DNA of 45,425 bases from Xenorhabdus griffiniae (GTDB lineage Bacteria; Pseudomonadota; Gammaproteobacteria; Enterobacterales; Enterobacteriaceae). A program made the translations under genes and the position numbers. The stretch is from the NCBI RefSeq assembly GCF_015163655.1, contig NZ_JADEUF010000020.1, positions 1 to 45,425 of the forward strand. Direction: 5' to 3'. Of the stretch, positions 39,203-45,425 are shown piece by piece. Within the stretch, counting starts at the first letter, position 1; the number at the start of each line of letters is the position of its first letter. Below the pieces are notes generated by a model that did no database searches, was not told where the DNA came from, and saw nothing but the letters and a program-made list of their open reading frames with translations.

Positions 39203-39221
39203 CCAGTAATTGAAAAACTAA

Positions 39222-43905: not shown

Positions 43906-44796
43906 ATGGCTCTTTCCAAGCATCGGGCAGCGTCTTTTTCACTGCTTCCTGTGATTTTATTGTTATTGTCAATGACATCAATTCAAGCAGGGGCTTCTCT
44001 GGCTAAAACAATATTTCCTGTCATTGGCGCGCCCGGTGTCACAGCCCTGAGACTTGCATTAGGCACAATTATTCTATTTCTGATTTTTAAACCGTGGCGG
44101 TTAAAGTTTCAGCGTTCTTCATTGCTCCCGCTTTTCGCCTACGGCATTTCCTTGGGTGCGATGAACTACCTGTTCTATATGTCCTTATCCCGAATTCCGC
44201 TCGGCATTGCCGTTGCGCTTGAGTTTACCGGACCTTTGGCGGTAGCCATGTTTTCTTCCCGCCGTCCTCTGGATTTTCTCTGGATTGCCTTGGTTATTGC
44301 CGGATTAAGCTTCCTGCTGCCAATCGGGAATAGCGTCAATACACTCGATCCTATCGGCATTGCGTATGCACTGGGAGCCGGTGTTTTTTGGGCGCTTTAT
44401 ATTATCTTTGGACAACGTGCTGGAGCGGGCTATGGTGCCGCGACAGTGTCTATCGGTTCACTTATTGCAGCCTTTATCTTCTTCCCAATCGGATTAATAC
44501 AGACAGGTCCTGAACTCCTGTTCGATGCTTCTCTACTGCCGATTGCCCTGGGGATCGCCATTTTATCCACCGCGTTTCCTTACACTCTGGAGATGATTGC
44601 CCTTACTCGCCTGCCAGCCAAAACATTCGGAACATTAATGAGCCTTGAACCTGCTTTGGGCGCATTATCAGGCATCATTTTCCTTAATGAGCATTTGGCA
44701 ATGTCTCAATGGATTGCCCTTTTCTGTATTATTTGTGCTTCCATAGGCTCCACTTCGACCATTAAGAGAAAAACTAAAATAGAAAAAGTAGAATAA
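43906..44796 (+). CDS. rhtA: EamA-family amino-acid exporter RhtA
   Basis: An inner-membrane exporter with ten predicted membrane segments in two EamA halves. E. coli RhtA exports threonine and homoserine. The 296-residue protein keeps TSIQAGASLAKTIFPVIGAP, GVTALRLALGTI, PLGIAVALEFTGPLAVAMFS (near 104-123), TFGTLMSLEPALGALSGIIF and the short charged C-terminus. It lies next to dps, its E. coli neighbour, which supports the assignment. Confidence 0.92.
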   Translation: MALSKHRAASFSLLPVILLLLSMTSIQAGASLAKTIFPVIGAPGVTALRLALGTIILFLIFKPWRLKFQRSSLLPLFAYGISLGAMNYLFYMSLSRIPLGIAVALEFTGPLAVAMFSSRRPLDFLWIALVIAGLSFLLPIGNSVNTLDPIGIAYALGAGVFWALYIIFGQRAGAGYGAATVSIGSLIAAFIFFPIGLIQTGPELLFDASLLPIALGIAILSTAFPYTLEMIALTRLPAKTFGTLMSLEPALGALSGIIFLNEHLAMSQWIALFCIICASIGSTSTIKRKTKIEKVE

Positions 44797-44810: not shown

Positions 44811-44923
44811 TATACCCATCTAAATAGCGTTTCAAAATGATAGGCGTATTCCTTACCCCGCGCTCCGCGCGGGGTAAGGAACTCCAACATCTGATACTTT
44901 CAGTATTATGAAAACCTATTTAG
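44811..44923 (+). repeat. Second-family palindromic repeat fused to the first family
   Basis: Left end TATACCCATCTAAATAGCG is followed by a strong central hairpin (TTCCTTACCCCGCGC-TCC-GCGCGGGGTAAGGAA). Its right arm (TATGAAAACCTATTTAG) is the imperfect complement of the left arm. It differs in core sequence from the main family but has a similar size and end. The right end merges directly into copy 10. Confidence 0.7.
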
Positions 44924-44985
44924 CTTCAAGATGCGTGTAATTTCATATCGTGTTGTAAATTGCAACTTGAAGTTTAATGCGTATA
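44911..44985 (+). repeat. Palindromic interspersed repeat, copy 10 (short form without hairpin)
   Basis: A 75-bp derivative that reads AAAACCTATTTAGCTTCAAG at its left end and GTGTAATTTCATATCG across the place where the hairpin should be. The hairpin-loss junction is the same as in copy 7. The right end GCGTATA is normal. Confidence 0.8.
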
Positions 44986-44999
44986 GAGATAATTCATTG

Positions 45000-45032
45000 A
45001 AACCGGAGAACTATTTACTCTCCGGTTTTTTT
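45000..45032 (+). terminator. Terminator between rhtA and dps
   Basis: AAACCGGAGA (45000-45009) pairs with TCTCCGGTTT (45019-45028), and the T-run continues past 45030. This 10-bp stem is a strong Rho-independent signal, about 200 bases after the rhtA stop, beyond the repeats. Confidence 0.85.
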
Positions 45033-45178: not shown

Positions 45179-45314
45179 ATGAATACTGCAAAATTACTCA
45201 AAACCAAACCTTTTGGTCTGATTTATACCCGAAACAATCTTGATGAAGGTATTAAACAAAGAACGATTACGACCTTAAATCATATGGTGAGCCAATTTAT
45301 CGATCTATCCATGC
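45179..45314 (+). pseudogene. dps: dps, 5' fragment interrupted by an IS66-like insertion
   Basis: The first 45 codons match the N-terminus of Dps, the ferritin-like DNA-binding and iron-storage protein of stationary phase. [15 protein letters not shown] and the helix ending QFIDLSM align with E. coli Dps. AAGGGAG seven bases before the ATG is a strong ribosome binding site. At 45315 the Dps sequence stops just before its ferroxidase region (E. coli continues TKQAHWNMRGANF), and IS-type sequence begins. The frame runs on to a stop at 45377-45379 through IS sequence, giving a 66-residue chimera. rhtA next door is the E. coli neighbour too. The gene should yield no functional Dps unless a second copy exists. 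A possible -10 (CTATCTAA, 45133-45140) lies upstream. Confidence 0.82.
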
Positions 45315-45425
45315 GTAAGCGGCCAATTAACCCGTGTAATTTACCTCATATCACTGATACTCACGTTCCACGGCAGTAGATCATGCAGAGGATCATCGGC
45401 TTGACGTTTGGGGAGTTCCGTAAAA
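45315..45425 (-). mobile_element. IS66-family insertion sequence, end only (continues past the window)
   Basis: Position 45315 begins GTAAGCGGCC, the terminal GTAAGCG typical of IS66-family inverted repeats. The minus strand then carries the end of a transposase frame (45341-45424). The element lies inside dps. IS66 members usually duplicate 8 bp, here expected to be ATCCATGC (45307-45314). The other end is outside the window. Confidence 0.75.
45341..45424 (-). CDS. IS66-family transposase, C-terminal end (partial)
   Basis: Reading in from the window edge on the minus strand, the last 27 codons give [20 protein letters not shown] followed by VSISDMR and a stop at 45341-45343. The L-P...LLPWN pattern is the signature of the IS66 transposase C-terminal element. 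It ends 26 bases inside the inferred IS boundary. Most of the gene is outside the window, so intactness cannot be judged. Confidence 0.7.

Follow-up and report, generated by a model that had tools for sequence, protein, structure and literature searches.

The window analysed here is an entire contig (C113, 45,425 bp) of the draft assembly of the insect-killing bacterium Xenorhabdus griffiniae (G000; 272 contigs, 4.22 Mb). Among 40 sampled contigs of this assembly, all 24 longer than 3 kb were readable, and all 16 shorter than 3 kb (the longest 2974 bp) read as N. Near the right end of the window lies rhtA (43906..44796, + strand), intact, conserved and directly 5' of dps, the neighbour that the preliminary description had expected and the arrangement found in relatives keeping dps at this locus. 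Between the two genes, alignments jump at extra DNA (44811..44982), which is absent from Xenorhabdus sp. BG5 and X. thuongxuanensis; in the alignment to G043, a genome labelled as the same species by the search, only ~44822-44913 of it is missing. Part of a dispersed repeat sits at the end of this extra DNA. The repeat, of ~107 bp and self-matching on both strands, has many copies in the window (at 1857, 14675, 26558, 31360, 33325, 34348, 41938 and 43136, with partial copies at 39221 and 44914) and occurs also in relatives. A terminator-like inverted repeat followed by a T-run (45000..45028, + strand) lies between rhtA and dps, and the dps ATG is preceded by the purine-rich AAGGGAG, in keeping with the ribosome binding site proposed earlier. 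From there dps runs for 45 codons and one base (45179..45314, + strand) up to the putative insertion point. The remainder of the window (45315..45425, - strand) is the right end of an IS66-type element, that is, its transposase 3' side, cut by the contig end. It encodes what appears to be the C-terminal stretch, 27 residues long, of an IS66 TnpC (45341..45424, - strand), in a frame that the contig end leaves open. At the border 45314/45315 the + strand sequence is GTAAGCGGCC, and ATCCATGC (45307..45314) is a candidate 8-bp target site read from the sequence, with one copy visible. The listed open reading frames include a hybrid of 66 aa (45179..45379, + strand) that joins Dps residues 1-45 to 21 residues from the IS end.

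The identity of the first 45 residues as Dps, asserted previously, is clear from the intact dps of G043, to which positions 45179-45314 are identical at 133/136 nt and 44/45 aa. Against the intact dps loci of six relatives and G043, the homology breaks off at 45313 or 45314, and against the more distant relative G012 at 45318, so that the previously noted stop at 45314 is borne out. The full 168-aa G043 Dps matches solved Dps in the PDB (1dps and other chains) over residues 1-167 (E 3.4e-80), with the ferritin-like domain PF00210 at residues 31-167, whereas only residues 1-45 are seen in the strain studied. The 66-aa hybrid matched no Pfam family at E<=0.1 and thus carries no ferritin-like domain at that threshold; as judged from its sequence, it is a Dps remnant and not a working Dps. 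Because it stops before most of the ferritin domain, we infer that the strain makes no functional Dps. The genome search for a second dps that had been suggested gave none in the strain's readable contigs, where the Ferritin family search returned two genes only, which we take to be FtnA-like and bacterioferritin-like. To judge by the intact allele of G043, the disruption is not species-wide.

The IS66-type terminus claimed from 45315 onward could be recognized in the strain's own genome, since positions 45315-45425 align end-to-end with contig C17 (111 bp, 84% identical, E 3.5e-28). All 111 bp were found in eight other places in the strain and its relatives: C17 (84%) and C220 (83%) of the same genome, X. 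khoisanae (G045, 86%), X. indica (84% and 80%), the MAG G024 (82%), X. anantnagensis (80%) and G043 (78%). A ninth match, in G009, covers 105 bp at 75%. The terminus (GTAAGCG...) is thus present over 111/111 bp at 80-86% in five genomes including the strain itself. The C17 copy, the one among the terminus-matching copies for which IS66 domains were tested, encodes a TnpC of 496 aa that passes PF03050, PF13005, PF13817 and PF13007, and the 111-bp match lies at its end. The 27 residues on the opposite strand of the window resemble the C-terminus of this protein, as the preliminary description had it; taken alone they match PF13817 with E 0.096 and 13.3 bits, below the curated cut-off of 30. The C17 element measures 2311 bp, a length that the X. 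indica copy shares along with the left end. The C17 left end, GTAACCGC..., matches the right end at 15/22 positions, where chance candidates reach 14. The element in dps therefore shares its right terminus end-to-end over 111 bp, the transposase C-terminus and the orientation of the latter with IS66-family copies of this strain (C17), X. indica, X. khoisanae and X. anantnagensis. It differs from them in that only 111 bp of it are visible; being at most 86% identical among the matches, it is probably a separate IS66 subtype. No second exact copy of the 111 bp occurs in the readable contigs, the best other being 84% identical. Insertion sequences of the IS66 family generate an 8-bp target duplication. 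The two copies with a placed left end (C17 and G010:C48) lack an 8-bp direct repeat, and target duplications at IS66 copies elsewhere were accordingly rejected as a positive control.

The end of the contig at 45425 looks like an assembly break at a repeat boundary. The distance from the IS border to the end of C113 is exactly 111 bp, as is that from an IS66-like left end to the end of C212; C51 and C250 begin with exactly 111 bp in common and then diverge, the sole shared pair among 40 readable termini (56 examined, 16 of which read N). These recurring 111-bp ends therefore fit k-mer assembly broken at repeats, and we infer that C113 was broken off at this point by the repetition of the element in the genome. 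The 111-bp length does not hold throughout, as C220 extends 185 bp beyond its own IS border.

Beyond the element, an 8-bp repeat and then the rest of dps had been anticipated; neither was found in the readable contigs (those longer than 3 kb among the contigs sampled). A full Dps query matched nothing beyond codon 48 in these contigs (true homology ends at 45), and 1.7 kb from X. sp. BG5 gave matches beyond the break only of chance lengths. With a 2360-base query from X. thuongxuanensis, for which 40 of 59 first-look candidates were scored, the first 2217 bases were unmatched in the readable contigs and the last 143 correspond to the start of contig C112. C112 carries dinG, upstream of which are the gene for an ABC ATPase and, from base 3 of the contig, the 3' part of the gene for its membrane partner (155 C-terminal residues); the contig begins inside this last gene, without an IS end. 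Its start lies ~2.2 kb past the dps break in X. thuongxuanensis and X. kozodoii, and ~3.3 kb past it in G016. In the relative, the sequence missing here is AT-rich (30% GC). An AT-rich ABC transporter pair lies between dps and dinG in several loci (L070:1-1092, 28% GC; L054, L055, L057); the pair is present in some Xenorhabdus and partial or unmatched in others, and has no match at the dps locus of G043. The numbering of C112 beside C113 was rejected as evidence of order, as the lengths of the sampled contigs suggest a lexicographic sort by size rank. An initial conclusion that the genome lacks the remainder of dps was likewise withdrawn, given that the sampled small contigs (16/16 below 3 kb) read as N.

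The explanation that we consider very probable is that an IS66-family element inserted into dps after nt 136. The insertion point would be the first base of codon 46, with the transposase gene reading toward dps, and the event would account for the 5' quarter of dps that is seen and for the abrupt change, at 45314/45315, into the right end of an IS66-type element. Support comes from the sharp border, the 111-bp matches, the TnpC end on C17 and the intact dps of same-species G043 and of 21/30 Xenorhabdus genomes in total, and from the fact that the contig ends 111 bp past the border, as other repeat breaks do. We counted against it that 111 bp are visible with no exact second copy, that the far flank, the duplication and the rest of dps were not found in the readable contigs, that C112 starts without an IS end, that C220 ends at 185 bp, that one pair of ends among 40 is shared, that the other copies lack 8-bp repeats and that the inverted repeats agree at 15/22 positions. 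An assembly chimera at 45314/45315, in which unrelated DNA was joined and dps is intact in the strain, would find some room in the position of the junction, 111 bp from a contig end, and in the small contigs that read N. It is nevertheless very unlikely, since the join would have to coincide exactly with an IS terminus, and this within a gene that occurs once in the readable contigs (none of which holds an intact dps), and since other contig ends show the same length as that of C113.

If the insertion is real, its far side could take two forms, both of which stand because the sampled contigs below 3 kb read N. There is roughly an even chance of a simple insertion that duplicated its target, in which case yjdM and the remaining part of dps would lie beyond the element on a small contig. 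Sixteen of the 40 sampled contigs are below 3 kb and read as N, and yjdM, which is full in 28/30 Xenorhabdus genomes and lacking only from the strain studied and X. hominickii, may well be absent here because of a gap; against this, there is no positive trace of such a contig, and a further, independent cause would be required for the break at C112. A little less probable is an insertion accompanied by an IS-adjacent deletion, which would have removed dps from codon 46 onward, yjdM and the ABC membrane gene as far as codon ~219, with C113 and C112 flanking one element. The 2217/2360 unmatched bases of the X. thuongxuanensis query followed by 143 at the C112 start point this way, as does an analogous case in X. 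hominickii, where dps residues 1-46 are followed by foreign DNA with a gap and then by the ABC ATPase from codon ~140, with yjdM gone. However, the missing piece could sit on contigs below 3 kb or, being AT-rich, could have dropped out of the assembly, and the 111 bp of IS sequence on C113 have no counterpart at the start of C112.

Disruption by an IS66-like element, as first proposed, is thus supported by the border and the terminus match, but the accompanying view of Dps loss as a strain trait was too narrow. A full Dps query found uninterrupted full-length dps in 21/30 Xenorhabdus genomes, including X. khoisanae, where the intact gene starts near a contig end; in 9/30 it is broken or missing. 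Besides the strain studied, X. anantnagensis keeps only residues ~113-159, X. hominickii residues 1-46 (beyond which come foreign DNA, interrupted by 100 N, and a remnant of the ABC ATPase) and X. vietnamensis residues 1-92. The start of X. lircayensis dps is replaced by other DNA and the gene has an internal TAA, G042 (a complete genome) has a frameshift near residue 135, and no dps was found in G013 (a single contig of 3.66 Mb), X. beddingii or X. japonica. In all eight of these other loci (L110-L114, L138-L140), rhtA and dinG are on one sequence, with N between them only in X. hominickii. Where the deletions end varies, with one exception: a left end near the rhtA stop is common to X. anantnagensis and X. 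japonica, so these two losses may not be independent. The X. hominickii remnant breaks, like that of the strain studied, at codon 46, within ~2 nt (L111 near 10217, window 45314), with foreign DNA beyond; the inserted DNA is different, presumably IS1-like, and the X. hominickii scaffold continues with the ABC ATPase remnant and dinG. Codon 46 of dps is perhaps an insertion hot spot, or the coincidence of two different insertions is due to chance.

Outside Xenorhabdus, using loci from the best 80 of 83 listed, dps is intact at 10/12 Photorhabdus loci, with which a genome-wide search of 11/12 agrees. At the two broken loci (L166, L167), residues 108-168 are left in P. sp. CRCIA-P01 and nothing in P. 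bodei; the P. bodei interval holds small ORFs that, we assume, resemble a toxin-antitoxin pair. In Proteus, Providencia and Moellerella, dps is intact at 22/22 assessable loci, one of the 23 (L184) stopping at a contig end. Left uncounted were L197, L205 and L213, which have no dps beside rhtA, as well as L200-L204, L206-L212 and L214-L219. With kinship ignored, Fisher tests gave p 0.007 for 9/30 vs 0/22 and p 0.011 for 11/42 vs 0/22; draft genomes may hide a second dps copy on small contigs. On a DNA tree of rhtA and dinG (46 rows, 4/22 outgroup loci, three Photorhabdus rows with rhtA only), dps loss requires 8 changes (bootstrap 7-9; 7 forced by starred branches). The shuffled mean was 10.0, and 28/500 shuffles were as low as 8, which indicates some clustering of the loss. 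A loss-only reading gives nine all-lost groups, two of which are pairs joined by unstarred branches.

Neighbouring genes served as controls in the 30 Xenorhabdus genomes. Whereas rhtA, dinG and sseA are full in 30/30 and yjdM in 28/30, a Gfo-type dehydrogenase is full in 20/30, an ABC-F gene in 26/30 (some misses may be ends of the stretches examined) and a GNAT gene in 7/30, a count that suffers from the chosen start. These three led us to reject the idea that dps is the sole variable gene at the locus. Intact dps has a median pairwise dN/dS of 0.087 (20/21 intact genomes, 182 pairs, X. khoisanae left out), compared with 0.048 for rhtA, 0.038 for dinG and 0.020 for yjdM; on these ratios, intact dps is under clear purifying selection, weaker than that on the other three genes.

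Usually, dps, whose product protects DNA, is counted as a core stress-survival gene. A single IS insertion in it is ordinary, and the recurrence of loss is the noteworthy part: differing lesions occur in 9/30 Xenorhabdus, yet the intact copies are under purifying selection. Recurrent dps loss was not reported among the matches listed in the literature searched, which was largely without subscription papers, and dps does not occur in the accessible portion of PMC4079199. According to another report, dps belongs to the OxyR regulon of X. nematophila and is strongly OxyR-dependent (-3.24, taken as log2 change in an oxyR mutant under oxidative stress), and no catalase gene was identified in Xenorhabdus (PMC11281485). 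On balance, we favour the view that nematode-symbiotic Xenorhabdus and Photorhabdus repeatedly discard dps, by IS insertion, deletion, frameshift or nonsense mutation, despite the reported lack of catalase and the OxyR dependence. If so, Dps protection would be dispensable or even costly in some insect or nematode niches. The pattern of loss therefore offers a natural experiment, in which same-species or sister pairs with and without Dps could be compared for survival of peroxide, starvation and nematode storage.
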